Below, one piece after another: positions 74-34,812 of a DNA stretch of 34,962 bases. The stretch spans positions 1-34,962 of the forward strand of contig CAMJNF010000009.1 in the NCBI GenBank assembly GCA_946407235.1, written 5' to 3'. Position 1 is the stretch's first letter; every line of letters begins with the position of its first letter. A program made the translations under genes and the position numbers. The notes under the pieces were generated by a model, which saw only the letters and a list, made by a program, of their open reading frames with translations, searched no databases and was not told where the DNA came from. The stretch comes from an uncultured Fibrobacter sp. (GTDB lineage Bacteria > Fibrobacterota > Fibrobacteria > Fibrobacterales > Fibrobacteraceae).

Positions 74-118
74 AAGTAGGAAGTAGGAAGTAGGAAGTAG
101 GAAGGAGAATGTAGCGGG
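74..118. repeat. Heptad tandem repeat array (TAGGAAG-type)
   Basis: Four perfect tandem copies of a 7-bp unit (AAGTAGG) are followed by degenerate copies in the same phase. TAG occurs at 77, 84, 91 and 98, GAG at 105, and TAG again at 112. The array lies between the putative valS start and the DUF4160 gene. The same 7-base TAG phase recurs at 23981-24100 and 29080-29149, so it looks like a member of a dispersed repeat family rather than a chance microsatellite. Confidence 0.8.
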
Positions 119-14247: not shown

Positions 14248-17200
14248 ATGCTGCACCTAAAGTTTGCGTTGAATCTCAATAATCTCGCTGATAAAATGAT
14301 CGACGAGATTTCTCGTTGTTGGAAAAATCCGTTTGAAGCTCCTGTTATCGTCTTTCCGGATCCCAAGATGGAACAGTGGTTTCGCTTGCGCTGGGTGCAA
14401 AAAAAAGGTGTTCTTGCGAATCTGAACAATAGCATGATTGACCGGTTTCTTTTTGAAATTCTGGTTGGCGATAACGATCAGCTCAAGAAACTTTCATCGG
14501 ACATGCTTGCGAATGTCATTATTTCGTATCTGCAGCAAAAAACGGGTGAAAAATTCAATTATGAACTTATAGGCGATAGCGTCAAATCGTATCTCGAAAG
14601 TGATGGCGTTATTGATGAAAATCGTCTTTTCGATTTTGCGAATGTCGTTGCGGGGCTTTTTCTGGAATACGAAACGAGCCGTCCGAGCGGTTTTATCGCG
14701 GATTCGGAAACGGGCGAAAGCGCAAAGGGAATTCTCGATTGCTGGAAACAGGGGGAGCTGCGCGATTTCTTCTTGATGCGGGACGGAAGCCCGGTCGCAA
14801 ACGAGGAATGGCAACGCAAGCTGTATTCTGCGGTTTTTCATGCCGATGGAAAGGATAAATCGCTGTTATCGCAGGTGTTTGAAAAATCAGCGGAAAAGAA
14901 AGGCAAGGATGTAACCTACTTGACGCTGCCGTATCTGTATGAAGCGTGTAAGGATAAAAATGGCAAGGCGAAATTTCATTACGATAGCGACCTTCCTGTT
15001 TTTATTTTTGGCCTCTCGGGGATGGGGCAGTTCTATCGCGTTATTTTGCAAGAGTTTTCTCGCAATCATGAAGTCTATGCTTATGTGCAAAACCCTTGTA
15101 TGGCGTTTTGGGAAGATTGCAGTGGCGTCCGGAAACCTCTGGAAAGCATGCGTCTTGCGGTTCCTGCTCTTGCAACGGATCCGACTGACGAAAGCGAACT
15201 GATTGACGAAAATGAAAACGAACTTTTGAGATATTGGGGTAAGGCCGGCCGCGATAACATTAAGCTTTGGAGTATTGCTACCGATTACAACTTTGTTTTT
15301 GATGGAGATTCCATTGTAGACCGCAACAGCGAAATGCCTTGCGATACACTCTTGCATAACGTGCAATGGATGATTGCAAATCGAAAGAATTGCTTCCATG
15401 AAAATTCAAATATTTTGAGCAGGGCTCCGTTCAAAGATGATGAGTCCTTTAGCGTAACGACGGCTCCATCGAAGATTCGTGAAGTCGAAGCGCTGCATTC
15501 GCACATTTGCCGCCTGCTTTCTGAAAAAGATGAAATGGGGCATCCGAAAGCAAATATTGCGGATATTCTCATTGTGTCTCCGAACATTGACGATTATCGC
15601 ACTGCGATTTTCCAGGTGTTTGACCAGACTCGTGATGGTTTCCACATCCCGTTTAACATTGTCGATTCTGCCGCTCGCGATTCGTTGACGGCGAATGCGC
15701 TTGCGATTCTTTTTTCTATTCGTGAAAAGGGTACGCTTTCAAGACCGGACTTTTTTGCGCTGATGCGAAATCCCGTGGTGCAAAATGTCCGTAGAATTCA
15801 TGCGGATGAAATTTCCGATTGGCAGTCTTGGACGACCAACATGAATATTTACCGCGACCGCATTGCCGATGATAATGGTGTAAAACGTTGCGAAAAATCT
15901 TGGATTACGGCGACTAGGCGCATTTTGCTTTCTCGCTTTAGCTATGGTGGAGTGCAATCGGAAGAGGGTGAAATTTTGCCCTATAGCGATATCAGCAGCA
16001 GCGATAGCAATTCGCTGTACCGCTTTGTTGACGCGATTGATTCACTCGAAAGCTGGATGGATAAGGATGCCTGGGAAAAGAAATATGGTTCGCCCGACGT
16101 GTCTGCAGAAAATCTTTCTGCGGTTTACCAGTTCTTAGATTCTTGGCTTTGCATGGGAAATCCGCCCAAGGAACTGGCGGGCGAAAGCGTTATTTACCAG
16201 TCGATTGCGTCTGCCCGTGAAAATTTGGAATACCAGTATTTCGCGGGTAGTGAAACGATTTCGTTCAAGTGTATTTCGCAAACGTTGCTTTATGCGGCGC
16301 GAGGTTCGGAATACAGTTGTGGTAGTGTTTTCATTAACGGGCTTACGTTTATGAAGTTCGCTCCGAACCGCATTGTGCCGACAAAATACCTCTTCTTTAT
16401 CGGGGCTGATGCCGCGAATTTCCCTGGAGTCCGCAATACGAATACGCTGGATTTGCGGAAGTCTTGCCGCCCTTGGCCGGGCGACGATTCGGTTGTGTGC
16501 AGAAATCGTTATGGATTCCTTTGCGAACTCATGAGCACATCGGACGGATTCTTTATCAGTTATGTGAATAAGGACTTGCAAAAGGATGAAGATTTTTATC
16601 CATCGTCCATCGTGAATGATATCCGCGGATTCTTGCGGAATGCGCTTAAAGCGTCTGGCGTAAACGATTCCTCGGTTTTGAAAAATCTATGGCCCGATAT
16701 TAATATTCCGCTTGATGAAACGCGCTCTTGGGAATCGCTTTACACTCGCCGAGAAATTCGCAATAAGAATGCTCATTTGGAATTTGGCAATGATCGCTTG
16801 GTAGTCAATTTTACGCCCGATGAAGAAAGTGGCGGAGACCCGCGCCTTCCAGAACAAGTGAATATTTATCAGTTCAAGGAGTTCCTTAAGGATCCGTTTG
16901 AATTCCGTGTGGGTCAGATGATGCAAATCGAAGAAGAAAAGGAAGATCCCGAAAAAACGGAATTTGAGCCTGTTGTTGCCGATAATTTGCAAGTGTCTAT
17001 CTTGCGTCGAATGCTCTTGGCGCAGAAATTGGGCGTTTATGAAAACGAGCATTTGAAAACGGAAGAAAATATTCGTCTTTATGCAATTTCTAAGGGCCTT
17101 CTGCCAAAGAGTTCTTTTGGTGAACGTGTTTGGAACGACATTTATGACGAAATCAATTGCTTGGCGCACTTTGTTGAAGGCTTGTATAACCGCAACGAGT

Positions 17201-17814
17201 TCCAATACGGACGCCGAGCGATTGAATTGAAAATGAATGGATGGACGCTTTTGGGAAATATTTCCTTGCTCACGCAAAACGAAAAATGTGTACACTTGAT
17301 TGAAATTGCGGGCGTCAATATTCATCCGTATCATTTCTTGGCGGGGTATATCCAGGCGCTGGCCCTTATTTGCGAAGCGGATCGGAAAAAGGAACCGTTG
17401 CCCGAGATTTACGTGGATTGCTATTCTAAGACAACATGGCAATCGAAGCGTATCAATCGCTCTCCGGCAGACGCAGAAGCTCTGCTTGAAAAAATTTATC
17501 GCAAGATGTTTACGGTGCAGATGGATCCGTGCGGCAAGTGGGGACGCTACAGTAAAGTCCTCCCGATTGATATGGTGGATGATGATAAGATTGAATCTTA
17601 TGACGATTACATTAATGCGTTTAAAGATGAAAATAATTCACCTTGGAAATATTTTGCTGGTCGCAAGCTTTTTGATGTCAAAAAAGTTTGCGGTTTCCCG
17701 GAAAAATATTTTATGGATCTTTGGGAAAAAGAAGTTGTTGATCTCAAGAATTTGACGCCGGATTTGTGGATTCCCGAGAATGATAGGGGAGGTGTTGTCG
17801 ATGTCGCAGATTAA
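14248..17814 (+). CDS. recC: Exodeoxyribonuclease V gamma subunit RecC
   Basis: 1188 residues, close to the usual 1100-1200 of RecC. The N-terminus (IVFPDPKMEQWFRLRW...GVLANLN) matches the RecC inactivated-helicase start. Further RecC signatures are FIFGLSGMGQFYRVILQEFS with YVQNPCMAFWEDC, then ADILIVSPNIDDYR and PFNIVDSAARDSL, followed by LTFMKFAPNRIVPTKYLFFIG. RecC holds the RecBCD complex together, splits the duplex and reads Chi. It acts on double-strand ends in the cytoplasm. The gene follows the HIRAN gene by 23 bases with a weak ribosome binding site and overlaps recB by 14 bases, indicating translational coupling. Confidence 0.93.
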   Translation: MLHLKFALNLNNLADKMIDEISRCWKNPFEAPVIVFPDPKMEQWFRLRWVQKKGVLANLNNSMIDRFLFEILVGDNDQLKKLSSDMLANVIISYLQQKTGEKFNYELIGDSVKSYLESDGVIDENRLFDFANVVAGLFLEYETSRPSGFIADSETGESAKGILDCWKQGELRDFFLMRDGSPVANEEWQRKLYSAVFHADGKDKSLLSQVFEKSAEKKGKDVTYLTLPYLYEACKDKNGKAKFHYDSDLPVFIFGLSGMGQFYRVILQEFSRNHEVYAYVQNPCMAFWEDCSGVRKPLESMRLAVPALATDPTDESELIDENENELLRYWGKAGRDNIKLWSIATDYNFVFDGDSIVDRNSEMPCDTLLHNVQWMIANRKNCFHENSNILSRAPFKDDESFSVTTAPSKIREVEALHSHICRLLSEKDEMGHPKANIADILIVSPNIDDYRTAIFQVFDQTRDGFHIPFNIVDSAARDSLTANALAILFSIREKGTLSRPDFFALMRNPVVQNVRRIHADEISDWQSWTTNMNIYRDRIADDNGVKRCEKSWITATRRILLSRFSYGGVQSEEGEILPYSDISSSDSNSLYRFVDAIDSLESWMDKDAWEKKYGSPDVSAENLSAVYQFLDSWLCMGNPPKELAGESVIYQSIASARENLEYQYFAGSETISFKCISQTLLYAARGSEYSCGSVFINGLTFMKFAPNRIVPTKYLFFIGADAANFPGVRNTNTLDLRKSCRPWPGDDSVVCRNRYGFLCELMSTSDGFFISYVNKDLQKDEDFYPSSIVNDIRGFLRNALKASGVNDSSVLKNLWPDINIPLDETRSWESLYTRREIRNKNAHLEFGNDRLVVNFTPDEESGGDPRLPEQVNIYQFKEFLKDPFEFRVGQMMQIEEEKEDPEKTEFEPVVADNLQVSILRRMLLAQKLGVYENEHLKTEENIRLYAISKGLLPKSSFGERVWNDIYDEINCLAHFVEGLYNRNEFQYGRRAIELKMNGWTLLGNISLLTQNEKCVHLIEIAGVNIHPYHFLAGYIQALALICEADRKKEPLPEIYVDCYSKTTWQSKRINRSPADAEALLEKIYRKMFTVQMDPCGKWGRYSKVLPIDMVDDDKIESYDDYINAFKDENNSPWKYFAGRKLFDVKKVCGFPEKYFMDLWEKEVVDLKNLTPDLWIPENDRGGVVDVAD

Positions 17815-20800
17815 ACTTTTCGATATTAAAGAGTTTCATTTTGGAGACAACCTTTACATTGATGCATCGGCGGGAACGGGCAAGACATACACCATCCAGC
17901 AGTTGGTGGCGAAATTGGTCCGTGGCGAAAATCGCCATGCGGGGATTCCTCTTTCTAAAATTCTGATTGTCACGTATACGGATAAGGCCACAGGTGAACT
18001 TCGTGACCGCATTCGTCAAAAGATGGAAGATTGCCTTGCCGAAGAAAACTTGGAATGTTATCGCGAGGCTTTGCAGAATATCCATACGGCTCCGATTTTT
18101 ACGATTCATTCTTTTTGTCAAAAAGTCTTGCATGATTTTGCGTATGAAGCGGGCTCGTCATTTAATTTGGATGTTGTTTCAGATGATGGTATAAAGAATC
18201 TAATCCAGAGGCTCGTTCGAGATAAGTGGTCGTATGAAAAAGATTTTGTGAATCTGCTTTATGCAACGGACTTTAAAATGGATTTGTTCGTCTCGAATTT
18301 TGTGAATGCCGCCAATCGCATTTTGCAAAATCGCGATGTGAAATGTTTTTCGCCAGATTATAGTTCGCTAGAAGGAATTTTTGAATGGGTGCCGGGTGCA
18401 CGCGATGCATGGAATGTCTTGCTTGAAAATAAGGACGAAGTTTACGAAGAAGTCCTCAAGACGAAAACGAATAAGCTGAAATTGTCGGATTTTATTGATG
18501 CGATAAAAGCGTATGATGGAACTGGAAAACTTTTTCCGGGGACGAAATTCAAGTCGAAATGGCGCGGTGTCTGGGGTTCTGATGAGTTGAATAACGCTGT
18601 GGATCTTCTTTTTGAAATCAAGGACATGGATTTGCAAAAAGATTCTATTAAACTTTTCCAACAGTTTATATTCAATCATGTGGATGAAGTCGTTGCGCAG
18701 TGGCAAAAGGAAAAGCGCGATAGTAAATCGCAATCCTTTAGCGATATGATTAACGCGGTTCATGATTCCATTATGAACGAAAATGGCGCTCTTGTCCGCA
18801 AATTGCGCGAAACCTACCGCTATGCGATTATAGATGAATTTCAGGACACGAATCAGTTGCAGTGGGATATTTTCAAGACGATATTCTTGAATGTCCCGCA
18901 AAATGAAGGTTTTCCCGAAAATAACATCGTAGTAGTGGGCGATCCGAAACAGTCGATTTTCTCGTTTCAAGGAGCGGATGTCGATGTTTACCGTCGTGCC
19001 ATCGCTGAAATTGGCGATAAGAATGGTCGTCGTCTTTCAACGAATAACCGTTCGAGCGATGATATCATTGATGCCTGCAATGAACTTTTCCAAGGAGATT
19101 TTTTTGAAAATGGAGAGTTTAAGAATTCCGAGACGCCTCCTGAAGAACGCAAAAAGCTATCGCCTGCTTTGAATGGTGAAGCAACGCCGCCGTTTTGGAT
19201 TTCTTATTTGGCGGATGAATATGAATTTGCCGATTTTGCAGTGCGAAAGATTGTGGAATGTTGCGCGCCCAATGCAAACGACAGTTCAAAAACGTCTTTG
19301 CAGGTTTACGATAAAGAGAAAAAAGGCCTGAGGAATGTGCGCTTTTCGGATTTTGCAATTCTTTCGCGCACAAGAAGCGAAATGGAAGCGATGGAAGCTG
19401 CCATGGCGCAAGTCGGCATTCCTTATACGCGCTATAAGGATTCGAACTTGTTCTACGGAAAGGAATGCGCTCATTGGATTTCGCTTTTGAAAGCGCTTGA
19501 TGCTCCAGATTTTTCTAGTTGGAATCGAAAATTCTTGAACGAAGCTCTTGTCACGGATTTTTTTAGAGTTCCGCTAGATTCTGTCGAAAATGAATCATTT
19601 GTGTACCCGACGGGACATGTAATGAATTTGTTTGTTGTATGGCGCCAGCTTGTTTCAAAGAGGCGCTGGGCGGAGTTGCAGGAGAGCATTTACCAGGAAA
19701 CAGAAATTGACAAGTATTTGAGTACACCTGCGACTTTGCAGCAATTGGCAAAGGTCAAACAAATTGGTTCGTATATTTTTGACTACTTGTACAACAATCA
19801 TGTTTCGCTTGAGGAAGTTATAAAGCATTTGCAAGGGCTTGCGGGTGCTTCGGAAAATGTTGACGATGCGGATGGAAACTTGGTGGCGAAGGGGAGCGAT
19901 TTTGATGCGGTGAACCTCATGACGATCCACTCCTCAAAAGGCCTTGCGTTTCCGATTGCCATTATTACAGGCGGGCTTCGTGGCGACAGCAATCGCAAAG
20001 AACGTGAACCTTATGCGTTTAGTGCCGATGGTCGAAAATTCATTGGCTTTGATGCTAGCGTATCGCGTACAACGAGCAAGCAAGAAGACCATGCGGAATG
20101 GCGCCGCTTGATTTATGTGGCCTATACGAGAGCGGAAGCTTTGATGATTGTTCCGCAGTATAAAATCTGGTATAAAGAAGAGAAAGGCAAAGAGGACGAA
20201 ATTCAAACGGATGAAAATGTAAAATGGACGTTGAAGGAATCGAATCCGTTTGCTTTCTTGGCGAGTGCGGTAGAGCGCATGACGCATACAAAATACGCTC
20301 GAATGCCCAAAGAAGATTTTTACGCTACTGCTGATTATGCCGCATTGAAAAAAATGGTAACACAGATTTTGCAGAATGCGAAAAAAGAATCGCTTGATAC
20401 AAGTTTGTTGCCTGATTTCAAGAGCTTGCAAAGTCGCGTGGATGACGCTTGTATCTACCAGTATTCTTATTCTAGCTTGGCCTCTAAAAAGCGCGTACTT
20501 GAAAGTAGAACGGAATCGCGTTATCTTGAAAATGCAGATATCTCGGTTGATGGAAATCGCACAAATCGCGAAGAAGTTTACGAGTCCGAAGCAAATGCTC
20601 TCGATATTGCCTTGACGCCGATTTCGAGGGAGCTGAAAAGCATCATGATTGATGATGCTTCTGCTGTAGTGCAGCCCTGTGAAAACTACGACCGAAATGC
20701 GATTGTCGCCAATATTGCGAATTACCCGCGAGGTGCGAATTTGGGTGATGCGTTGCATAAGGTATTCGAGAATCTGGATTTTGAAACGATTGGTAATCTG

Positions 20801-21469
20801 GCGGATGAAAATGCGGCTTGCGAAAATGCTTTGCTCCGTAACTTGATTACGGATATGTATCAAGGAAATTCTATTCATATTCAGGAACATCCGGAGTGGA
20901 ATAAGCTGACTGCAAGTTTTGTCTGGAATACGATGAATGCTGAATTCCCCGAAGTTCATGGCGGCGTGGCAACCGGGAAGAATTTCTCTCTTAAGGATTT
21001 GCCGGCAAAATCTCGCCGCGCAGAAATGGGATTCCATTTGGATAGTCATGATTCAAAGGAATCCTCTTGGGTGAATTGCCTTTGCAAGGGTTTTATAGAC
21101 TTGATGTTTGTCCGCAAAGGTGAAAATGGTGAAGATTACTATTCAATTCTAGACTGGAAATCCGATGTCATGGACGATGCGGAATACAGCGACAAGACTT
21201 CGCTTTCTCGAAAAATCGAAGAAGATTATTCTGTGCAACGAGTCCTTTATTCTTATGTGCTAATCAAGTGGCTTAAACAGTTCTACGGCGGTATGACTGA
21301 ATCGCAAATTTATGACAACCATTTTGGTGGCATTTATTATGCACTTGTTCGCGGGACAAAAGCCAACACTTGCAATGGTATATATTGCCAAACTTGGAAA
21401 AGCTTTGATGACCTTGAAAACAGTTACCGCAATGTAACGGCATTGATGAAACGCGGCGTGAGGGAGTGA
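17801..21469 (+). CDS. recB: Exodeoxyribonuclease V beta subunit RecB
   Basis: About 1222 residues. UvrD/Rep-type SF1 motifs in order: DASAGTGKTYTIQQL (Walker A), TYTDKATGELRDRI, TIHSFCQKVL, IIDEFQDTNQLQW (Walker B), GDPKQSIFSFQGAD, NLMTIHSSKGLAFP and LIYVAYTRAEAL. The C-terminal nuclease domain keeps its metal ligands: GDALHKVFE (His), GFIDLMF (Asp), LDWKSD (Asp-x-Lys) and QRVLYSYVL. It is therefore both a 3'-5' helicase and a nuclease. I chose ATG 17801 because GGGGAGG lies 8 bases upstream; the ORF-track ATG at 17780 adds an unsupported 7-residue extension. Overlaps recC by 14 bases and touches recD. Confidence 0.95.
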   Translation: MSQIKLFDIKEFHFGDNLYIDASAGTGKTYTIQQLVAKLVRGENRHAGIPLSKILIVTYTDKATGELRDRIRQKMEDCLAEENLECYREALQNIHTAPIFTIHSFCQKVLHDFAYEAGSSFNLDVVSDDGIKNLIQRLVRDKWSYEKDFVNLLYATDFKMDLFVSNFVNAANRILQNRDVKCFSPDYSSLEGIFEWVPGARDAWNVLLENKDEVYEEVLKTKTNKLKLSDFIDAIKAYDGTGKLFPGTKFKSKWRGVWGSDELNNAVDLLFEIKDMDLQKDSIKLFQQFIFNHVDEVVAQWQKEKRDSKSQSFSDMINAVHDSIMNENGALVRKLRETYRYAIIDEFQDTNQLQWDIFKTIFLNVPQNEGFPENNIVVVGDPKQSIFSFQGADVDVYRRAIAEIGDKNGRRLSTNNRSSDDIIDACNELFQGDFFENGEFKNSETPPEERKKLSPALNGEATPPFWISYLADEYEFADFAVRKIVECCAPNANDSSKTSLQVYDKEKKGLRNVRFSDFAILSRTRSEMEAMEAAMAQVGIPYTRYKDSNLFYGKECAHWISLLKALDAPDFSSWNRKFLNEALVTDFFRVPLDSVENESFVYPTGHVMNLFVVWRQLVSKRRWAELQESIYQETEIDKYLSTPATLQQLAKVKQIGSYIFDYLYNNHVSLEEVIKHLQGLAGASENVDDADGNLVAKGSDFDAVNLMTIHSSKGLAFPIAIITGGLRGDSNRKEREPYAFSADGRKFIGFDASVSRTTSKQEDHAEWRRLIYVAYTRAEALMIVPQYKIWYKEEKGKEDEIQTDENVKWTLKESNPFAFLASAVERMTHTKYARMPKEDFYATADYAALKKMVTQILQNAKKESLDTSLLPDFKSLQSRVDDACIYQYSYSSLASKKRVLESRTESRYLENADISVDGNRTNREEVYESEANALDIALTPISRELKSIMIDDASAVVQPCENYDRNAIVANIANYPRGANLGDALHKVFENLDFETIGNLADENAACENALLRNLITDMYQGNSIHIQEHPEWNKLTASFVWNTMNAEFPEVHGGVATGKNFSLKDLPAKSRRAEMGFHLDSHDSKESSWVNCLCKGFIDLMFVRKGENGEDYYSILDWKSDVMDDAEYSDKTSLSRKIEEDYSVQRVLYSYVLIKWLKQFYGGMTESQIYDNHFGGIYYALVRGTKANTCNGIYCQTWKSFDDLENSYRNVTALMKRGVRE

Positions 21470-21471
21470 TT

Positions 21472-23445
21472 ATGGCAATCGAAAAAGTAAATGTTGATGG
21501 TTCGGTAGCTGAATTTTTTGAATTGCTCCGCGAAATGCGCGGGATTACTCCGATTGCTGAAAAAATGCACAAGTTGCTTTGTGATTTGCAGCAAAAACCT
21601 GCAATGAGTACGTCTGCGCAAAAGGTTTTGTACATGTATCTTTCGCTTTTGGAAGATGGCAATACGCGAATCCCGCTAGATGAAAAAATGCTTTTTGCAA
21701 AGTGGTCGCAAAAGTGGAATGGGCTTGTCGTGCAGGCGGAAAGTCGCGATGCGCTGCGGGGCTTTAAACGCGATGAATTGTATCTAAGTGCCGATGCTTT
21801 TTTGCCCATCATTCGTGATGGCGTTCAAGATATTCTTTTGAAAGGCTATTCGCAGATTATTGGCGATGATTCGACTCTATTGCATTTGCAAGAAACTCCT
21901 CAATGTCGTTATTTGATTTCGTCAAAGCATCTAGAAGATAAAATTCATATCGAAAATATTTTCAAGTCCGGAATCTTTAAGGAATCGGTGATTGAAAGTG
22001 ATGCGGTTCCGCAAGCGAAAGAATTTGTTCGAAGCTTGTTACGCGAAGGCTCGCCGATTGATTTTGACGATCGACAGGCTGAAGTGATTGCCCGTGGTGC
22101 CTTGCAAAACCTGATTATTACGGGCGGTCCAGGAACTGGGAAAACGACCGTTATCGGTTTTTTGCTGTGGAAACTTTTTGCAAGTGATGCCCGTTATTTA
22201 AACTGGGATTTGTTTATGGCGGCGCCGAGCGGAAAAGCGGCAGACCGACTTGCCGAAAGTATGGAAGATACTTTGCATGAAATTTCGGAAAACGTGCGGA
22301 GTGAACATCCTGAGTTTGTTGAAAAACTTGCAAAAACTTCAAGCTATACATTGCATCGACTTTTGAAATATAGCGTTTCGAAAGGTGGATTTACTTTTAA
22401 TGCCGGTAATCCGCTTCCAGAAAAGGCTATTTACATCATTGATGAAGCGAGCATGATTGATGTGTCGCTGTTTGCGGCATTTTTGCAGGCGCTCCCGCCT
22501 AGCGGTGATTTTAAGCTTTTTATTTTGGGGGATCCGAATCAGTTGCCATCGGTTGATGCTGGGGCTGTGCTCGGAAACATCCTGGAATTCGATCGTAATT
22601 TTGTGGTGAAACTTATTCGTTCCAATCGCTTTAATGATGATTCTAAAATCGGTGTACTTGCCGGAAGAATCCAACGCGGCGAGAACATCGTTTTTGAAGC
22701 ATCTCCGTTTGATTCGCGTGAAGCCTATTGGGAAACTCGCGATAGCGTGAATCTTTTGGATTTGGATGGCGACCGGAATCTTTCCCGCAAGGAAGAATTG
22801 CGTTCAGTCGAAGCTTTGGTGCGCAAGTGGACAAAAAAGTTTTACGCCCCGCTTTTGAGTCTCGCTGCTTCTGTCAATCCTGATGTTCCTGAAGAATGTG
22901 TTTCATCGGAGCAATTAAGTATTTGCGAAAAACTTTGGAATGTTGCGAATCAAGCGCGAATTTTGTCTGCAGAACGTCGTGGCAATCGCGGTGTTGAAAT
23001 CTTGAACCAGATTGTTTCGGAAACGCTTACGCAAAGCACTGCAACGCGCTTTGTAGGGCAAATTTTGATTTTCAACCGTAATCAGAATGAATTCAAGCTC
23101 TATAACGGTGATACGGGAATCGTGGTGCGCTCCGAACGGCACGAACAGCTTTTCTTGATGCTGAAAAAACAGTCTAGGTTCAGCTTTTTCCCGCTTTCGT
23201 ATTTCCCAGAGGATTGCTTGGAGAGTGCGTTTGCGATTACAATTCACAAATCTCAAGGTTCTGGCTATCCGAACATTTTGATGTTCTTGCCTACGCGCAA
23301 AGGTCATCCGCTTTTGAATCGTCAAATCCTTTATACGGGGGTGACCCGTACGAAAAAACAGAGCCTTACGATTGTGGCAACGCCTGAAACATTCAAGGCT
23401 GCTTGCGAAACCGTTATCGAGCGCGATACGGGTATAGCGCTGTAG
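21472..23445 (+). CDS. recD: Exodeoxyribonuclease V alpha subunit RecD
   Basis: About 657 residues. SF1B helicase motifs: IITGGPGTGKTTVIG (Walker A), AIYIIDEASMIDV (Walker B), LGDPNQLPSVDAGAVLGNI (motif III), TIHKSQGSGYPNIL (motif V) and LYTGVTRTKK (motif VI). The N-terminal ~190 residues are the RecD-specific helical region that contacts RecC. RecD is the fast 5'-3' motor of RecBCD. The ATG at 21472, 2 bases past the recB stop and 5 bases after GAGGGAG, is preferred over the GTG at 21466. Last gene of the operon. Confidence 0.93.
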   Translation: MAIEKVNVDGSVAEFFELLREMRGITPIAEKMHKLLCDLQQKPAMSTSAQKVLYMYLSLLEDGNTRIPLDEKMLFAKWSQKWNGLVVQAESRDALRGFKRDELYLSADAFLPIIRDGVQDILLKGYSQIIGDDSTLLHLQETPQCRYLISSKHLEDKIHIENIFKSGIFKESVIESDAVPQAKEFVRSLLREGSPIDFDDRQAEVIARGALQNLIITGGPGTGKTTVIGFLLWKLFASDARYLNWDLFMAAPSGKAADRLAESMEDTLHEISENVRSEHPEFVEKLAKTSSYTLHRLLKYSVSKGGFTFNAGNPLPEKAIYIIDEASMIDVSLFAAFLQALPPSGDFKLFILGDPNQLPSVDAGAVLGNILEFDRNFVVKLIRSNRFNDDSKIGVLAGRIQRGENIVFEASPFDSREAYWETRDSVNLLDLDGDRNLSRKEELRSVEALVRKWTKKFYAPLLSLAASVNPDVPEECVSSEQLSICEKLWNVANQARILSAERRGNRGVEILNQIVSETLTQSTATRFVGQILIFNRNQNEFKLYNGDTGIVVRSERHEQLFLMLKKQSRFSFFPLSYFPEDCLESAFAITIHKSQGSGYPNILMFLPTRKGHPLLNRQILYTGVTRTKKQSLTIVATPETFKAACETVIERDTGIAL

Positions 23446-23507: not shown

Positions 23508-23528
23508 GTTTCGACCAACGACCAATGA

Positions 23529-23954
23529 CTATCCGAGCATTTCTTGGGTGCTGAGCGTCTTGAAGTTCTTTTCTTCCAGGACCTTGAGCGCCTTTTCGGT
23601 ATCGCTAAAGCGAAGAATCATGACGTTCGTTGCCGTCGAGCATTCAGACGGGTAAGCGTACATGTAGTCAATCTGCAAGTCGCCAAGAACATCCAAGAGG
23701 TCGGCGAGACCGCCAACTTTGTCTGCAACAGGGCATGCGACAACGTCGGTAACGGTTGCGCTGAGGCCTGCCTTGGCAAGAACATCGACGGCTTTTTCAG
23801 ATTCATTCACGATCAGGCGGATAAGGCCGAATTCGCCGGAGTCGGCGAGCGTGAGCGAGAGAAGGTTGATGCCAGCGTCAGCGAGCGAGCGGCAAACAGC
23901 CTGGAGACGACCCGGACGGTTCTGAACAAAAACGGAAACCTGTGGAATTTTCAT
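23529..23954 (-). CDS. Tandem ACT-domain protein
   Basis: 141 residues made of two ACT modules: the first starts QVSVFVQNRPGRLQAVCRSLADAGINLLSL, and the second, about residue 70 onward, contains LADLLDVLGDLQIDYMYAYP. ACT pairs bind amino acids or related ligands and regulate enzymes. Stand-alone tandem ACT proteins are frequently encoded beside phenylacetate-CoA ligases and indolepyruvate oxidoreductases in anaerobes, and the upstream neighbour here is such a ligase. AAGGAG precedes the ATG. The ligase gene is separated by a 120-bp repeat element, so co-transcription is likely but not tight. Confidence 0.88.
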   Translation of the reverse strand: MKIPQVSVFVQNRPGRLQAVCRSLADAGINLLSLTLADSGEFGLIRLIVNESEKAVDVLAKAGLSATVTDVVACPVADKVGGLADLLDVLGDLQIDYMYAYPSECSTATNVMILRFSDTEKALKVLEEKNFKTLSTQEMLG

Positions 23955-23980: not shown

Positions 23981-24100
23981 TAGGTAATAGGCGTTAGGGA
24001 TTAGGCTTTAGGTGAACAATCGCGGCAGAGCCGCCCAATAGAGATGCACGAAGTGCATGATTCTTATTCCTAATACCTACAGCCTACAACCTGTAACCTA
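23981..24100. repeat. Composite inverted element: heptad arms around two hairpins
   Basis: The left arm has TAGG at 23981, 23988, 23995, 24002 and 24009. The right arm has the complement CCTA at 24069, 24076, 24083, CCTG at 24090, and CCTA at 24097. Every step is exactly 7 bases and the two 32-bp arms are reverse complements at about two-thirds of positions. Between them lie two perfect hairpins, GCGGC-AGA-GCCGC and ATGCAC-GAA-GTGCAT. The element sits between the ligase and ACT genes without breaking either. Confidence 0.75.
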
Positions 24101-24102
24101 AT

Positions 24103-25452
24103 TTAAATCTTCTTTCTGTTGTCGATGACTCGCTTGGCCTTGCCTTCGCTACGCGGCAGAGAATCCGGTTCGCAAAGCGTGACAATCACAGAAATGCCAA
24201 GAATCTGTTCGATGGAGTGCTTGAACTTCTTGGAGAGCTGTTCCATATCGCTCATGGAGTCGCTCACCATGTCGCGAGAAACTTCCACCTTGACTTCGAG
24301 CGTATCCATGTTGTTCTTGGTGTCGAGTACAATCTGGTAGTGCGGCAAAGCCTTTTCGGCGCGGAGGAGTGCTGTTTCGATCTGGCTTGGGAACACGTTC
24401 ACGCCACGCATGATGATCATGTCGTCGCTGCGGCGGCCAATGCGGCGGATACGGCGGATGGTACGGCCGCATGCGCACTTGGTCTTTTCGATAGCGGTGA
24501 TATCGCGGGTACGGTAGCGGAGGATCGGCATGGCGCGCTTGCTGAGCGTACTGATGACGAGTTCGCCTTCTTCGCCGTCCGGAAGCGGTTCGAGAGTTTC
24601 CGGGTCCACGATTTCGGGGTAGAAGTGGTCTTCGAAAATGTGAATACCATCGCGGCATTCGCATTCGCAACCCACGCCCGGGCCAACAATTTCAGAAAGA
24701 CCGTAAATGTCGTAAGCTTTGATACCCGTCTTTTCTTCGATGTAGTCGCGCATGCCATCGCTCCACGGTTCTGCACCGAAGATGCCGCGCTTCACGTTCA
24801 ACTTGGAAATATCGACGCCCATCTTTTCGGCAACGTCGATAATGCGGACAAAGTAGCTCGGGGTGCCACCGACTGCGGTCACGCCGAAGTCCTTCATGAG
24901 CATCACCTGGCGTTCGGTATTGCCGCCGCTAATCGGCACGACTGTGGCGCCGAGGGCTTCGAAACCGCCGTGAATGCCAAGGCCGCCAGTGAAAAGGCCG
25001 TAGCCGTAGAAGTTCTGCACAATGTCCGTGCTGCGGAAACCGCAGGCGAGGAGGCCGCGCTTGACGACCTGAGCCCAGACTTCCATGTCTTCCTTGGTGT
25101 AACCGACAACAATCGGCTTACCGGTGGTGCCGGAGCTTGCATGCAAACGCACGACTTCGCTCATGTCCACTGCAAAAAGCCCGTACGGATAAGTGTCGCG
25201 CAAGTCCTTCTTCATGGAGAACGGAATCTTCACGATGTCCTTCAAGGTCTTGATGTCATCGGGGGTCACGCCCTTTTCGACCATGCGTTCGTGGAACAGC
25301 GGGACCTTTTCGTAGGCGAGCTTCACGGTTGCACGCAAACGCTGCAACTGCAATTCGCGCAATTTTTCTTCGGGCATAAAATCGAGCGCCATTTCGGGCA
25401 AGATCTTGTTTTCTTCGTCGTTCCAGGCTGTAGATCGCATAGTATCCTTCAA
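24103..25452 (-). CDS. paaK: Phenylacetate-CoA ligase (adenylate-forming)
   Basis: 449 residues, typical for PaaK. Adenylate-forming motifs: HASSGTTGKPIVVGYT (P-loop A3), YDIYGLSEIVGPGVG (A5), RYRTRDITAI (A7) and RRIGRRSDDMIIMRGVNVFPSQIE (A8 hinge), with the Cys-rich turn KCACGR. It converts phenylacetate or a related aryl acid plus ATP and CoA to the aryl-CoA. In an anaerobe next to an ACT protein it probably serves aromatic amino acid interconversion rather than aerobic phenylacetate catabolism. GAAGGAT lies 4 bases before the ATG; a TTATATAT stretch about 45 bases upstream may hold the -10. Confidence 0.9.
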   Translation of the reverse strand: MKDTMRSTAWNDEENKILPEMALDFMPEEKLRELQLQRLRATVKLAYEKVPLFHERMVEKGVTPDDIKTLKDIVKIPFSMKKDLRDTYPYGLFAVDMSEVVRLHASSGTTGKPIVVGYTKEDMEVWAQVVKRGLLACGFRSTDIVQNFYGYGLFTGGLGIHGGFEALGATVVPISGGNTERQVMLMKDFGVTAVGGTPSYFVRIIDVAEKMGVDISKLNVKRGIFGAEPWSDGMRDYIEEKTGIKAYDIYGLSEIVGPGVGCECECRDGIHIFEDHFYPEIVDPETLEPLPDGEEGELVISTLSKRAMPILRYRTRDITAIEKTKCACGRTIRRIRRIGRRSDDMIIMRGVNVFPSQIETALLRAEKALPHYQIVLDTKNNMDTLEVKVEVSRDMVSDSMSDMEQLSKKFKHSIEQILGISVIVTLCEPDSLPRSEGKAKRVIDNRKKI

Positions 25453-28566: not shown

Positions 28567-29082
28567 ATGTTTCGCAAGTTGATAGTTTTTCTTTCGATAG
28601 TCTTTGCTTGTGCAAGCTTTGCTGAAGATGGTCTCCGCATAGCTCATGTTGATTCGAAGATTATCTTTGACGGATTCAAGGGCACTAGGAAGGCTCAAGA
28701 AGAATACGATCGTCAGGTGGCAAAGTGGGAGCAGCAGGCAAACCTTCTGCAGAAGGAACTTGCTGCTATCAAGGAAAAACTTGATAAGCAAGTACTGATG
28801 CTCTCTGACGAGAAAAAGCGCGAACTTGAGGCCGAATATAATAAGAAGGATACAGAACTCAAGTCATTCATCGATCGCGTCTACGGACGTAATGGTGAAC
28901 TCATCACCGAAAACGAAAAGGTGAGTGCCCCGATTATCCAGCTTATCCGCAAGGCCGTGAACGAAATTGCGCTCCAGGAAGGCTATGACATGGTCGTGGA
29001 TCGTGCCACCGGCGCTGTACTCTTCTGGAAAAAAGAAAACGACCTTACGAATAAAGTGCTGAACTATTTGAATAATAGGTAG
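28567..29082 (+). CDS. skp: Periplasmic chaperone Skp/OmpH family
   Basis: 171 residues. Signal peptide MFRKLIVFLSIVFACASFA, then RIAHVDSKIIFDGFKG, the standard start of mature OmpH proteins. A long charged coiled coil (about 45-110, Lys/Glu/Gln-rich) forms the tentacle region, and a C-terminal strand region (EGYDMVVDRATGAVLFWK) closes the trimer body. It shields unfolded outer-membrane proteins in the periplasm and hands them to BamA, which matches its place 18 bases after bamA. GGAGG precedes the ATG. The TAG stop codon is also the first unit of a 7-bp-phased repeat array. Confidence 0.92.
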   Translation: MFRKLIVFLSIVFACASFAEDGLRIAHVDSKIIFDGFKGTRKAQEEYDRQVAKWEQQANLLQKELAAIKEKLDKQVLMLSDEKKRELEAEYNKKDTELKSFIDRVYGRNGELITENEKVSAPIIQLIRKAVNEIALQEGYDMVVDRATGAVLFWKKENDLTNKVLNYLNNR

Positions 29083-29149
29083 TTTGTAGTTGGTAGAACT
29101 TAGAGCTTAGAACTTAGAATGGAGTTGCTAGTTCTAAGTTACTAGAGGT
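29080..29149. repeat. Heptad repeat array starting at the skp stop codon
   Basis: TAG occurs at 29080 (the skp stop), 29087, 29094, 29101, 29108, 29115, 29129 and 29143. The two missing positions in the 7-base phase are single-base variants, GAG at 29122 and AAG at 29136. Ten consecutive heptads keep the phase while the other four bases vary. Confidence 0.8.
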
Positions 29150-29170
29150 GTCGCAGCATTCGCTTTTTCA

Positions 29171-29752: not shown

Positions 29753-30901
29753 TTAACCTTGCTTGTTCCCGTTGTCAAATGTGGCGCAGTATTCGCCTAG
29801 CAATTTTTGAACCGTTTCTTGCGGAATCAACTTCTTCTTGTATTCTGCGATCAATGTCGGACTCATCGAACGATTCATCGCGTATTCAACAACAACTTGA
29901 TCTGCTGAAGGACAAAGAATCATACCGATGGAGGGATTTTCGTTTGGCTTTCTCACATCCCTATCCAACGCTTCCAGATAGAATTCAAGTTGCCCCAAAT
30001 CCTTAGGATGAAACTTTGTTGTTTTTAGTTCGATTGCAACTAAAGCTTGCAAGCCTCTATGATAAAAGAGTAAATCGGCTTTGAATGTAGATGAACCGAC
30101 CTGCAAAACATATTCCATATCAACAAAAAGAAAATCCTTGCTGCCGAGTTCCAAAATGAAGTTCTTCATTTTCTCTACAATAGATTTTTTCAGTTTATTT
30201 TCCGAATGCTTTTGCGGTAAGCTTAAAAAATCTAGGAAGAGTTCGTCCTTAAAGGCTATACCTGCTTGCGGATAATTTTTCAGCATCCCTTTTGAAAGAT
30301 TCTTCTTTGAACGTAAAAGGGTCGTGAAAGTATCGTTCTTAATACAACGTTTCAATTCCCTGAAATTAAGACGCTCTTTATTTGCGTAGAGCATATAGAA
30401 AAGACGTTGTTCTTTTGTTTTGCAATGACAAAGAATTTCTACGTGGTTTGAAAATGATGTAAGCGAAACAACCTTCGGAAACGAGCTTAATTGTGCAGAC
30501 GGTGTCTGCACAATTTCCATCTTTCTATTTTTCTTTGTGTCCGTTTCCAATTGTGCAGGTTCTGTCTGCACAAATTCAGAGTTCAATTTTTCAGCAACAA
30601 AATTCAAGAATCCTTCCGATGAATATTCATCGTAAAACATGACCATGTTGTAGATGTTCCTTTTGCTGAACCCTTTCAGCGTAGGATCTTGCGTATGAAT
30701 ATAATCAGCAAGTTCGGCGACAACTTTTGTTCCCCATTCGTTGCTCTTTATCTTTTGACTTACATATTGCCCGACAAACCACACTGAACTAAGGTGCTTT
30801 TCGTTTACTTCACTAGCTGCCAGCGAACGCATTCTCTGAATCTGGTTTAAAATCGTTGAAAAATGCGATTGTAGTGTTTTTTCATTTACTTTTTTAGTCA
30901 T
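29753..30901 (-). CDS. YhcG-type PD-(D/E)XK nuclease (DUF1016)
   Basis: 382 residues. N-terminal DUF1016 helical domain (about 10-105; VWFVGQYVSQKIKSNEWG, then LKGFSKRNIYNMVMFY). A linker at 105-135 contains two similar peptides, EFVQTEPAQL and EIVQTPSAQL, each encoded by palindromic DNA. The C-terminal nuclease domain has FKADLLFYHRGLQALVAIELK (Asp, then Glu-x-Lys) and a following GQLEFYLEALD helix. The family is linked to DNA-end processing and to type I restriction and other defence loci; biochemical function is not settled. It lies between mcrC and an HTH remnant, all on the same strand. Confidence 0.88.
   Translation of the reverse strand: MTKKVNEKTLQSHFSTILNQIQRMRSLAASEVNEKHLSSVWFVGQYVSQKIKSNEWGTKVVAELADYIHTQDPTLKGFSKRNIYNMVMFYDEYSSEGFLNFVAEKLNSEFVQTEPAQLETDTKKNRKMEIVQTPSAQLSSFPKVVSLTSFSNHVEILCHCKTKEQRLFYMLYANKERLNFRELKRCIKNDTFTTLLRSKKNLSKGMLKNYPQAGIAFKDELFLDFLSLPQKHSENKLKKSIVEKMKNFILELGSKDFLFVDMEYVLQVGSSTFKADLLFYHRGLQALVAIELKTTKFHPKDLGQLEFYLEALDRDVRKPNENPSIGMILCPSADQVVVEYAMNRSMSPTLIAEYKKKLIPQETVQKLLGEYCATFDNGNKQG
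30489..30515. repeat. In-frame palindrome 1 within yhcG
   Basis: AATTGTGCAGAC and GTCTGCACAATT form a perfect 12-bp inverted repeat with a 3-base loop. It is translated as part of EIVQTPSAQL, around residues 129-138 of the nuclease. Confidence 0.9.
30549..30577. repeat. In-frame palindrome 2 within yhcG
   Basis: A second copy of the palindromic unit starts exactly 60 bases (20 codons) from the first. TTGTGCAG faces CTGCACAA across a 7-base loop. It encodes part of EFVQTEPAQL. Confidence 0.85.
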
Positions 30902-30974
30902 TTGGCGTATTCCTTTTGGCAGTAAAATAGATTATTGGGGCGGTGAGTGCAATAGCGATCGTTTCCTTCGATTG

Positions 30975-31043
30975 GACTAATGCTCCTTGCGTTATAGAGG
31001 GGCTGTTTTTGAGGGATTGGAAAATCAAAAGCTTTTTACTCAG
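30975..31043 (-). pseudogene. Short second remnant of the AlbA_2 HTH tail
   Basis: The minus strand reads LSKKLLIFQSLKNSPSITQG, matching SEKELLILQALKNNPYITQG of the remnant at 29351-29725. DNA at 30983-31032 and 29509-29558 agrees at about 44 of 50 bases by eye. The frame overlaps the mcrC stop codon and shows no start. It lies between mcrC and yhcG. Confidence 0.7.
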
Positions 31044-32419
31044 ACAATTAAATTTCTTTTCAAATTATTTTCTTCTTCGCGCATCGCTGCCCGAAATTTT
31101 TCAAAGCTCCCTTTTATCTCGGGAACTGTAAATGGCATGATGGTCAGCTTGATTGAATCGTCGTTATAAAGCGTCAAACTTGATGCTCGGTGCGTCTCAT
31201 TGAACTTTACGGGATGAATTAAGAACCCCTGTTTTGATTTAAATCTAAACAGGTAGGCTAGCATTTGAAATGCATCATCGCGGCCTAAACCGCCATTTAG
31301 TTGCTTATACTTGGCGTCGATAATTGCTGTTGCTGAATCTACTTGGCCTTTTGCCGTGTTGCAACCTATCATAAAATCGGGGAAAACCCAGCGTCGATTT
31401 TGATGGCCGTCATTCTTGAATAGATATTGAGCCCCTTTGCCTGTTCTATTGTTGGGGTGGCGCAATTTCTCCTTGAATTGTTCTTCTAGCACGATATTCA
31501 AGTATTCCTCCCAAAGACTTGCTCCGTCAAATAAAATTCCGTTTATTTGATGTTCTGAATTTTCACCATAACTTAACTTTTTATGCATTAGAATAGCAAT
31601 GCATAACTTGCGTAGGGGCTCGTATGCTGTATAATAGGGATGTGTTATTGGACGGAGATTTTTTGAGATAATTTGTTGACGGGTATTTCTGCTATAGCTT
31701 GATGTAGCTTGTTCGATTGCTTTTACATTATCAAATGTTTCGGAATAAACATCGCTGCCTAAAATTGACTTTCCGAAAGAACGCAAACGGATATATTCAA
31801 TTGTGTGGCGTATCAACTGTGTGATGTTGTTATCCGTAGTGTATTCGCGTGTATGGTATGCGACCTTTCCATTGAAAGGAATGTTATACCGTATATGACG
31901 AGCGATATCGATTGGACCACGAACATTTGCATCGTTGTATTCTCGAGTTACGTATGCTCGATAAACGCCTTGTTTTAAAGCGTTGTTCAAGTAACCGGGG
32001 AACAGATAATACAAAAAATCAAAGAAAGAATCTTCGCCTGCATCGGTTCGTGGCGTGTATGCTACATTACAAATCTTTTGCAACATGTAGTGTAAAAAGT
32101 AATTCTTGTCATTTAAATCAAAACGCGAAGTAATATTGACTCGGATGTCGTTCTTGAGACTTATGAAGCCCATTATATTGCCTGTAGAAATCCTCGGCGT
32201 TGTTTCGTCTGAATAATCTACATTGAAAATAGCATCGTTATCTTTTAAATCTAATTCCTTTGAAAAGGGAGGATAGATGATGAATCTGAATTTTTCACTG
32301 GCTAACGATTTTAAATCTTTTCCGGCAATGCTGTCTAAAGCTCTTCGAATTTTTTCGGGAGACGAATCAAGAGCGAATACTTGATTTTGCGTATTGTCTT
32401 TTAGAGTAATTAACTTCAC
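31040..32419 (-). CDS. mcrC: McrC-type restriction nuclease subunit
   Basis: 459 residues. The N-terminal region (about 1-110, FIIYPPFSKELDLKDND, RISTGNIMGFI) fits the McrC family. The C-terminal PD-(D/E)XK nuclease is seen in VFPDFMIGCN (near 344) followed by AIIDAKYKQL (near 365). McrC is the nuclease partner of the GTP-driven McrB motor and cuts modified or foreign DNA. The start is GTG at 32419, 2 bases after the mcrB stop, so the pair is translationally coupled. Confidence 0.9.
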   Translation of the reverse strand: MKLITLKDNTQNQVFALDSSPEKIRRALDSIAGKDLKSLASEKFRFIIYPPFSKELDLKDNDAIFNVDYSDETTPRISTGNIMGFISLKNDIRVNITSRFDLNDKNYFLHYMLQKICNVAYTPRTDAGEDSFFDFLYYLFPGYLNNALKQGVYRAYVTREYNDANVRGPIDIARHIRYNIPFNGKVAYHTREYTTDNNITQLIRHTIEYIRLRSFGKSILGSDVYSETFDNVKAIEQATSSYSRNTRQQIISKNLRPITHPYYTAYEPLRKLCIAILMHKKLSYGENSEHQINGILFDGASLWEEYLNIVLEEQFKEKLRHPNNRTGKGAQYLFKNDGHQNRRWVFPDFMIGCNTAKGQVDSATAIIDAKYKQLNGGLGRDDAFQMLAYLFRFKSKQGFLIHPVKFNETHRASSLTLYNDDSIKLTIMPFTVPEIKGSFEKFRAAMREEENNLKRNLIV

Positions 32420-32421
32420 GA

Positions 32422-34812
32422 TTAATTTTCGCTTATTTCGTCAGAAGAATCTTTTGGGTCTTCGTTCATGGAATATGCTTTTTCCAATTTTTTGAATTTT
32501 TCGCCACTTTCGTCAATGCCGCGTAAATATTCGCGGACAACGCCTTCGATATGGTATTCCCAAAGCTGTTGGAATCGTTGATTGGTATCACCGCTGTAGT
32601 TTTTGAGTTTTAAGAAATAAGCAGGGCCGATATCGTATGCTGAAGAAAGTCCTTCTGTTTGTTCAATTGCAGCATTCAAAGATTGCATTCGTTTTATTGC
32701 TTCATCCGCATATTCTGCAATACCATTCTCGGTATCGCTTAGCATTTCAATGCGGTCATCAGCCTTGATTTCTTTGAATGCGAATCTACGACGCATTGCA
32801 AAATCCATGCTTTCGACGCTGCGATCAATGTCGTTCATTGTACCGATGATATACACGTTTTCGGGGACGAAGAAACCTTCTGTAAACGTATCGTCGTCAT
32901 CTACAAGATTTTGATACTGTGTCTTTATTTTTCCTTTCTTTCCACGATAACCTGGATCAATAGCGAAGAAAAGTTCTCCAAAAATCTTAGATATCTCACC
33001 ACGATTGATTTCATCAATGATAAAAACAAAGTTTTTTCTGTTTATTTTTATTGCTTCAATATTTTCTTTTTTTATTCCATTGTATTTGGATACAAGCTGA
33101 TTTATGGCCCAACGATATTGGATGTAATCTAAATGATTTGCTCCATTAATATATTTTTCTGCTATATCGTCAATTTCTTTTTGGGTCATTTTATCATGTG
33201 CTATCTGTTTGTCTTTTAATAAACTGAATAGAATTTTCAAGTATTCTTTTTTTGTATTTTTGTGCCTTCCCGATTTTGTGCTAAATACAATCTGCCCCTT
33301 ACTAGACAAAGAAACTCTTAAATCTCCTTTTTCTGTTTTGTATGTTGAGATTACTTCATTATCAATATCATCTTGTAACTCTGCATAAATTTTTTCAAAT
33401 ATTTCATCATCTTTGGTTTCTTGAATGCTGCGATTACTGTCAGTTATATTTTTTATTGCTTTTTTACAGAACCGCTTAAATTCTCCATCTTTAAGTTCAA
33501 ATCCATCAGCCTTGCCATTCTCTCCTTTGGCTGGTCGAAGTCCTTCAACAAAGTCAGTATAGTCGTAGGATTGATGAAATTGAACAAAGCCGATTTCTTC
33601 ATCGGAACAGTCCATAGATTTAGCAATCTGTTTGGCTAAATATGTTTTACCGGTGCCTGGAGCGCCATGAAGAATGATGTTGTGATTTGCAAGTAAAAGA
33701 TTTTTGCAGGCTTCTGTTGTCTTGTTTGTCATAGAGCCAATAAAGTCTCCAAAAATAATTTTAATGGCTTCGTTCCCATTAACAGGAAAAAGTGTTCCGA
33801 ACCAACCTCCTTTATCCATTTTAGGACCCTTCCCATGGAATAGATTGTCGGTGTCTTTATTTATTTTTTCAAGGTTAACAATTCCATTTTCTTTATCTAC
33901 AGAAGTAACTTTTGAAATTTGCCAAATTGTCAAATCATTAGTCCCGCCATAAGAATGAAATGCAAAGAAATCACCTTCTTTTATTTTTTTGATGTTGTCC
34001 CATGCTTGCTTTGCACCCTTATTTGGAGATTCCCTATCCCATCCAATTCGCCAGTATTCATTTTTTTGAAATTCTTCTAATTTGCTTTCTTTACCGTCTT
34101 GCCATTTAATACCCCCGGACCAAAAATTAATTTCATCAATCGGACGAGTGTTTTTCCATGCGTTGTAAGACAATGTGGGTATAGATTGGAGTTCTCCAGT
34201 ATGTTTTTTTTTATTTAAAAAATCTAAAAGTTCATTATATTGCAGGGATTTCGGTTTCTTTTTATCTATTTGCCAAGAATATTTTTCCTTAAGATAGCTT
34301 GAGGTGTTGTTGTCTAGTGGGCATAATTCTTCTGGTCTTATCCAGAAAAAAGCCATAGTCAATTTAGCCAACGCAATACCATCTATTTTTAAAGCATTAT
34401 CAAAATCAGAATCGTCAAACTTAGATTGTTGAACGTCAAGAAATAGTTTCCATAATAAATTTATATCATCTTGCTTGTTTGCATAAACAGAGTTGATGTT
34501 GTTTAAAATGGGAATTCCATCCCAATCAGCTGGAGCAGAACTCTGTAGCTCAAATTTATCTTTGAAGTATGTAGCGATTTCATTTCGCCGTTGAAATGTA
34601 GAACGGTTTAATAGGCCAAATACTGTAAATGGATCAATGTCGTTGATTTTTGAAAAAAGTTTATTTGTCAAATAATCACGGTATTTTTCACGAATACCTT
34701 TTATGATTTCAATAAGAGTTTGACGATTTTCTCTGTATTCACATAATTTGTGGGCGAGTTCCTTAAAAAAGGGAATCCACGTAAAATTATTTGTTGTTGG
34801 TATGTCAGACAT
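32422..34812 (-). CDS. mcrB: McrB-type AAA+ GTPase with EVE/PUA-like N-terminal domain
   Basis: 796 residues. After a ~220-residue helical start, EYWRIGWDRE...GDFFAFHSYGGTNDLTIWQI looks like an EVE/PUA-type modified-base reader (about 240-330). The AAA+ motor has Walker A LHGAPGTGKTYLAKQI (near 382), Walker B FIIDEINRGEISKIFGEL (near 596) and the McrB signature TMNDIDRSVESMDFAMRRRF (near 655). It would recognise modified DNA and translocate, activating McrC. An inserted stretch between Walker A and B (about 435-570, RVSLSSKGQIVFSTKSG) is longer than in E. coli McrB. SD AGAGAGG precedes the ATG, and TATAAT on the minus strand at 34831-34836 is the likely -10. Confidence 0.9.
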   Translation of the reverse strand: MSDIPTTNNFTWIPFFKELAHKLCEYRENRQTLIEIIKGIREKYRDYLTNKLFSKINDIDPFTVFGLLNRSTFQRRNEIATYFKDKFELQSSAPADWDGIPILNNINSVYANKQDDINLLWKLFLDVQQSKFDDSDFDNALKIDGIALAKLTMAFFWIRPEELCPLDNNTSSYLKEKYSWQIDKKKPKSLQYNELLDFLNKKKHTGELQSIPTLSYNAWKNTRPIDEINFWSGGIKWQDGKESKLEEFQKNEYWRIGWDRESPNKGAKQAWDNIKKIKEGDFFAFHSYGGTNDLTIWQISKVTSVDKENGIVNLEKINKDTDNLFHGKGPKMDKGGWFGTLFPVNGNEAIKIIFGDFIGSMTNKTTEACKNLLLANHNIILHGAPGTGKTYLAKQIAKSMDCSDEEIGFVQFHQSYDYTDFVEGLRPAKGENGKADGFELKDGEFKRFCKKAIKNITDSNRSIQETKDDEIFEKIYAELQDDIDNEVISTYKTEKGDLRVSLSSKGQIVFSTKSGRHKNTKKEYLKILFSLLKDKQIAHDKMTQKEIDDIAEKYINGANHLDYIQYRWAINQLVSKYNGIKKENIEAIKINRKNFVFIIDEINRGEISKIFGELFFAIDPGYRGKKGKIKTQYQNLVDDDDTFTEGFFVPENVYIIGTMNDIDRSVESMDFAMRRRFAFKEIKADDRIEMLSDTENGIAEYADEAIKRMQSLNAAIEQTEGLSSAYDIGPAYFLKLKNYSGDTNQRFQQLWEYHIEGVVREYLRGIDESGEKFKKLEKAYSMNEDPKDSSDEISEN

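Follow-up and report, generated by a model that had tools for sequence, protein, structure and literature searches.

Phased Heptad Arms around a Covarying Two-Hairpin Core: A Dispersed, Structured Repeat Family in Fibrobacter

A gap between two minus-strand genes of an uncultured Fibrobacter sp. contains a 120-base element, 23981–24100 of the window (the whole stretch of 34,962 nucleotides that was analyzed), in which two arms built of seven-base units face each other around two hairpins. The family that shares its core is widespread in Fibrobacter, structured, and mobile over evolutionary time. We consider it reasonably probable that the element is one member of a genus-wide set of short, dispersed, non-coding structured repeats, which resemble REP/BIME elements but do not depend on RAYT.

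Results

Architecture of the Element

The source metagenome-assembled genome (MAG; G000, the "own genome" below) comprises 2.94 Mb at 72% completeness and is assigned to Fibrobacter, the genus that the earlier note had guessed correctly, its nearest named relatives being Fibrobacter succinogenes and Fibrobacter sp. MAGs. The element, which has no assigned strand, takes up the 148-base gap between the upstream gene for an AMP-binding, phenylacetate-CoA-ligase-like protein (24103–25452, minus strand, 449 residues) and the downstream gene for an ACT_8 domain-pair protein (23529–23954, minus strand, 141 residues). Arm A (23981–24012, plus strand) has five TAGGNNN heptads, with TAGG at 23981, 23988, 23995, 24002, and 24009 in exact seven-base phase and TAA, CGT, GAT, and CTT in between. 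Arm B (24069–24100, minus strand) starts two bases past the ligase stop codon and has five heptads that read TAGG or CAGG on the minus strand (CCTA at 24069, 24076, 24083, and 24097; CCTG at 24090). The earlier note had described a TAGG or CCTA at every seventh base, which is accurate for nine of the ten units, the remaining one being CAGG.

Between the arms, an AATC box (24018–24021, plus strand) forms the foot of hairpin A (24022–24034, plus strand; GCGGC-AGA-GCCGC) and pairs with GATT at the other foot; hairpin B (24044–24058, plus strand; ATGCAC-GAA-GTGCAT) has a GATT box at its foot (24059–24062, plus strand). Both stems are perfect and close three-base loops, and the convergent 32-base arms in seven-base phase around two perfect hairpins are present at 23981–24100 as first reported. 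The conserved core, represented by covariance model R1, spans 24014–24065 (minus strand).

Two further arrays are present in the window. The first (29078–29150, plus strand, class TTAGAAC) supplies, with its first TAG, the stop codon of an OmpH-like gene (28567–29082), and is followed by a partial inverted partner, CTAGTTCTAAGTT, and then by a palindrome piece, GTCATTGCGAG, at about 29172. The other (74–104, plus strand, class AAGTAGG) is unpaired. A heptad-like run, GACCAACGACCAATGAC, is also seen at 23509–23530, right after a terminator-like hairpin behind a RecD-like gene. That gene belongs to a run of RecC-like (Exonuc_V_gamma), UvrD/RecB-like, and RecD-like genes (14248–23445) adjoining the element, and a likely defence cluster encoding a YhcG/DUF1016 nuclease, an McrBC component, and an AAA_5 ATPase (McrB-like) occupies 29753–34812.

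The Core Is Dispersed within the Genus

Many unrelated loci across the own genome, G001, G006, and G027 carry copies about 72–81% identical to the 120-base element. The covariance model finds the R1 core in many Fibrobacter species, with 21 copies in the own genome, 55 in G001, 44 in G008, 72 in G021, and 77 in G076, and does not find it in G003, G005, G010, G022, G033, G034, and G037. Outside the genus, it returned two weak matches in one of eleven family genomes of other genera and no match elsewhere in the class, and a search of Rfam 15 (E ≤ 1) matched the element to no known RNA family. The common form, as seen in 25–26 aligned copies, runs from a B arm of TAGGTTN repeats through an AATC-like foot, hairpin B, about nine bases, hairpin A, and GATT to an A arm of CCTAANN repeats.

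Comparison of 36 copies in G008 and G021 separates core from surroundings: the flanks are 25% identical, as expected for random sequence, and the cores 97%. The same 44-base core recurs exactly, with different arms, in 26 of the 36 copies at unrelated loci, an identity that could reflect constraint instead of youth. Repeats may in general be blurred in MAG assemblies. In the arms of these copies, CTAG anchors are almost invariant over the first heptads (near 2.0 bits) and the intervening triplets vary (CCC, ATC, ATT, CCT, TCT; 0.5–1.35 bits), with the signal falling to background past the fifth heptad. Left arms are common to copies with unlike right arms, and the arm differences may come from mosaic recombination or from newly written heptads. 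At the right flanks of L310, L317, L318, L331, L332, and L341, elements pass into another palindromic repeat, AGATTGCTTC..GGGCTTCGCCCTTCGCAAT, giving longer mosaics.

Seven-Base Phase Is Not Due to Chance

The phased arms are not a product of chance. The pattern (TAGGNNN)x4 has 96 overlapping matches in the 2.94 Mb of the own genome, and the reversed pattern has none. In 400 kb of unselected sequence from this genome, TAGG-to-TAGG spacings of 7, 14, and 21 occur 40, 38, and 21 times, compared with 0–5 times for other spacings up to 27, and 41–46 arrays are found at lag 7 versus 0–6 at lags 4–6 and 8–13. Array statistics sampled from unselected stretches of four genomes show lag 7 to be dominant in G000, G008, and G024, with 36 period-7 arrays in G008, 52 in G024, and only 7 in G003. 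Seven-base tandem units are thus far above other periods, and they are mainly intergenic, since just 9 of 134 arrays lie inside ORFs. Some arrays form convergent pairs near the preceding gene, and the loci compared hold 33 such paired (inverted) elements; by the pairing criterion applied, 28 of 43 TAGG arrays lack an inverted partner. The earlier note had staked its reading on the element not being the only inverted pair in the genome and on its arms exceeding the background rate of TAG at this phase; the 33 pairs, the 21 core copies, and the spacing counts agree with it on both points.

Class changes that keep the seven-base phase are seen inside single arrays, for example GAGGTAA GAGCTTA GAACTTA (L182, 1976–2010) and AGTAGGA AGTGGTT (L014, 1500–1600). 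Because classes pass into one another without loss of phase, this suggests that heptad classes arise via point change and unit duplication.

Folding and Covariation of the Core

Hairpin A covaries between copies, and hairpin B does so strongly: for a given pair, as many as 11 of 25 copies have changes on both sides, and 98% of cells are paired. Over the core structure, 37 double-sided cells were counted, compared with 11.2 in shuffles and 0–7 in slid controls, an excess which implies that the core fold is maintained. Folded as RNA from either strand, the window element is predicted to form a rod tipped by the two hairpins, along which each heptad of one arm makes about four pairs with its counterpart in the other before a small internal loop. 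Its RNA fold z scores are −3.4 and −3.6 for the two strands, those of four elements with other heptad classes range from −3.8 to −5.1, and the single-stranded DNA fold of the window element gives −3.3.

The constant four bases of the arms can pair arm to arm at every seventh base. Copy-specific arm pairing, that is, compensatory evolution of the variable bases, was rejected at the resolution of this comparison: own arms pair no better than foreign ones (permutation p 0.84 and 0.59), and so only the class-wide anchors matter for pairing.

Orthologous Gaps Are Empty or Carry the Same or Other Heptads

Both genes bordering the ligase/ACT gap were found at 39 Fibrobacter loci, and the gap was compared across these. 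In 19 it is empty, measuring 12–34 bases with the next ribosome site right after the stop codon, and in 5 it holds a TAGGNNN element of the window type. Elsewhere, it carries GTGAGTA elements (L107–L109, L114, L122, and L123), ATGTGGA elements (L104, L111, and L121), CTAGAGG elements (L112, L117, and L130), an ATGAGCA element (L100), or a one-hairpin TTAGTGG element (L098 and L101), the right border of which in L098, ACCTAGCAACGTTTATAC, is the same as that of the window element. A second gap (L206), compared in 15 genomes, contains a TAGGNNN element in two, with junctions too diverged to judge duplication, and arrays of AGTAGRC, TTGATGA, GACGAGA, or CTAGAGG, or in some cases nearly nothing, in the others. 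The check proposed in the earlier note, whether homologous sites in related strains lack the element, thus has a positive outcome at both gaps. All arrays at L206 share one starting point, the stop codon of a single gene; position alone is no proof of targeting, because short gaps force any tolerated insertion near a stop codon.

Once in place, the arms change little. The window copy is identical to those of L094, L095, and L102 over all 131 bases compared, with the ligase genes about 95% and the ACT genes 82–91% identical; the CTAGAGG element of L112, L117, and L130 is 96–100% identical, with genes at 88–95% (rows L096 and L099, for which a false core had been picked, do not count in these two comparisons); and other orthologous pairs have elements at 98, 95, 95, and 89% versus flanks at 84–92%, with gaps mostly of 7. 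This identity could reflect recent between-species exchange instead of selection. Orthologues differ by exact seven-base gains and losses, i.e. one heptad. The combination of in-place identity with the variety of arms among paralogues implies that arm differences date from the formation or recombination of copies, with little later change except heptad gain or loss. The proposal that the four bases separating successive TAGs can vary freely hence does not hold within a locus: they are fixed at one locus in four genomes despite diverged flanking genes, and the bases that differ do so between paralogous copies, over a small set of triplets, not between orthologues.

These data bear on whether the arms are simple-sequence repeats, in which case heptads would have grown in gaps by slippage, inverted copies would have arisen by template switching at a hairpin, and nothing would move. 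The seven-base gains and losses, the in-phase class transitions, and the over-representation of heptads in other bacteria (PMC4692102) are as such a process would predict, but the sharing of one 44-base core by 26 unrelated loci, the covarying hairpins, the sharp drop to background past five heptads, and the empty orthologous sites are not. We regard this explanation as improbable overall; it is largely refuted for the two-hairpin family and is possible for single unpaired arrays. The earlier judgment that the pattern is not simple slippage accordingly needs qualifying, in that slippage is part of the history but leaves the shared core, the convergent polarity, and the dispersal unexplained.

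A Classical MITE Origin and a Resident Y1 Transposase Are Both Unlikely

The element was initially called MITE-like. A classical MITE would be a cut-and-paste remnant with the heptad arms as terminal inverted repeats, recognized by a transposase reading seven-base modules. The family is indeed short (about 120 bases) and non-coding, with inverted arms, dozens of dispersed copies, and empty orthologous sites. However, the ligase/ACT gap, the one well-resolved site, offers an empty junction (L093, TTTAA-G-AAGGAG) for comparison with occupied versions of those flanks, and relative to empty relatives its junctions show no duplication of the target site. Moreover, conservation in young copies is lowest, not highest, in the arms, and many arrays are unpaired. 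A search for hairpin-B boxes with and without a near partner in two genomes met no long version, the partner hairpin being adjacent in 21 of 27 and 42 of 46 cases. A classical MITE is therefore unlikely; the dispersal and the relatives with empty sites hold from the original description, whereas MITE status proper, with target duplication and a transposase-bearing long version, is not supported by these comparisons.

Mobilization as a REP/BIME proper, by a REP-associated tyrosine transposase, appears less probable still and is very doubtful. In its favor are palindromic units in inverted pairs, a conserved tetranucleotide at each hairpin foot, the intergenic location, and the mosaic copies. 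Against it, the foot is AATC/GATT, not GTAG, GGAG, or CGTC, and profile searches did not find Y1_Tnp (PF01797) in the own genome, in the rich carriers G006, G008, and G021, or in G027, and did find it in G005, which has no R1 core. A REP-transposase link was rejected on these grounds, PF01797 showing no correlation with core content.

Polarity and Stop Codons

At gene 3′ ends, the G-rich strand of the arrays is sense in 50 of 62 cases, and in 19 of 27 where the stop codon strictly precedes the array; the latter figure is safer because ORF calls are mechanical and a stop-bearing array ends any frame that enters it. Directly before start codons, the G-rich strand is antisense in 26 of 32 arrays. 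In 93 of 132 arrays the G-rich strand has stops in every reading frame, compared with 44 for the other strand and 57.8 expected by column permutation. The enrichment and the polarity are suggestive, given that the heptad classes are not independent. At the left array edges of L014, L052, and L054, a C-rich arm abuts a putative start ATG (e.g. CCTAAAAATG) with no visible Shine-Dalgarno sequence, as likewise reported for TAACTGA repeats (PMC4679880).

The three-frame stops raise the question of a stop-codon trap, in which a stop every seven bases would close all frames after a gene and limit read-through, and insertions near gene ends would be harmless. Several genes take the first TAG of an array as their stop, the L108 gene derives its stop from a GTTAAGA array where an empty relative uses another stop, and the three-frame property has also been noted for TAACTGA repeats (PMC4679880). 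The classes AGACGAG, ATGTGGA, TCAGTTN, and AATTCGG, however, have no regular stops, and a trap leaves the core and the second arm before gene starts unexplained. As the main explanation, it is possible but less than likely.

Three other candidates were set aside. G-quadruplex formation was rejected because runs of three or more G are absent in most classes (e.g. CTTAGAA, TTAGTGG, and TGAGTTA) and TAGG units mostly give GG. TRAP-like (U/G)AG sites have a spacing of 5–6, not the 7 seen here. Rho rut sites were considered for the C-rich arms, which are short and predicted to pair.

Discussion

Taken as a structured REP/BIME-like repeat, the element sits in gene-adjacent gaps, its G-rich arm directed away from the stop codon, and the same gap may be empty, carry a window-type element, or carry an element of other heptads. 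Copies would spread by ectopic recombination or another mobilization route, not by a resident Y1 transposase, and their arms would be reshaped through loss, gain, and exchange of whole heptads. The four-base anchors may be kept for pairing and, in most classes, for TAG, TGA, or TAA in all three frames. REPs between operon genes are known to act as barriers in mRNA. By analogy, the Fibrobacter element probably acts in mRNA beside stop codons, where the folded form could serve as an intercistronic or 3′ barrier affecting stability or stopping ribosomes or exonucleases.

A more speculative proposal, which we rate as decidedly unlikely, is that in each new copy the core is kept and the arms are written anew, by a copying mechanism that would re-anchor on the four constant bases and add seven bases per step, with the three variable bases perhaps drawn from a small repertoire. 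If true, it would account for why copies within one genome combine identical cores with combinatorially varied arms, why arms are stable once inserted, and why whole classes differ between species at one site.

The closest precedent for the Fibrobacter element is the convergent GGGAATC heptads of Xanthomonas (PMC4692102). These, and the GGGGA(T/C)T heptads of Nostoc, form intergenic arrays, mostly of about four units near the end of the preceding gene, with unit positions 1–4 and 6 conserved, 70–75 convergent inverted pairs per genome, and prominent arrays at different genes in sister species (PMC4692102). Intergenic location, convergent pairing, and closeness to the end of the preceding gene are shared with Fibrobacter. 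In contrast to the one heptad class with G-quadruplex potential of these systems, Fibrobacter has many classes per genus and genome, with G-runs absent from most of them; its arms enclose a two-hairpin core that is conserved and covaries, and classes are exchanged at orthologous sites. The TAACTGA repeats of Beggiatoaceae, Cyanobacteria, and Bacteroidetes are likewise dispersed intergenic seven-base repeats with three-frame stops, but are direct only (with one indirect case), lie mostly just upstream of start codons, and have a single invariant unit and no reported hairpin core (PMC4679880). In the P6b region of the Nostoc tRNA-Leu intron, degenerate heptads of classes I and II pair across the stem, a whole class can be replaced at one site, and length changes in steps of 7, although this is one site in a group I intron and not a dispersed family (PMC4476775).

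In function, the element most resembles REP/BIME elements, with which it shares inverted hairpin units, short conserved feet, mosaic structure, intergenic location, and high copy number (PMC2817692; PMC3733652); it differs in its heptad arms and AATC feet, and in that its richest carriers, among those tested, have no Y1 transposase. BrickBuilt, a minisatellite-bearing MITE of Porphyromonas gingivalis, is also short and mobile-looking with tandem repeats and long stems, but has 23-base units, IS-like terminal repeats, and some target duplications (PMC4596501). Seven-base repeats are therefore known in other bacteria, and we found no description of the structured, arm-swapping form; the open literature searched contained no account of such repeats in Fibrobacter, and a prior description is possible.

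Separate reports describe heptad repeats from Xanthomonas, cyanobacteria, and Beggiatoaceae, and no origin or role for them is generally accepted. In Fibrobacter, with its dozens of species, the same gaps are empty or hold different heptad classes, and copies can be traced by a covarying core, which makes both the origin of heptads (slippage, conversion, or templated addition) and their effect on neighboring mRNAs directly testable. Because the repeats touch stop and start codons, they matter for the assembly and annotation of rumen Fibrobacter MAGs.
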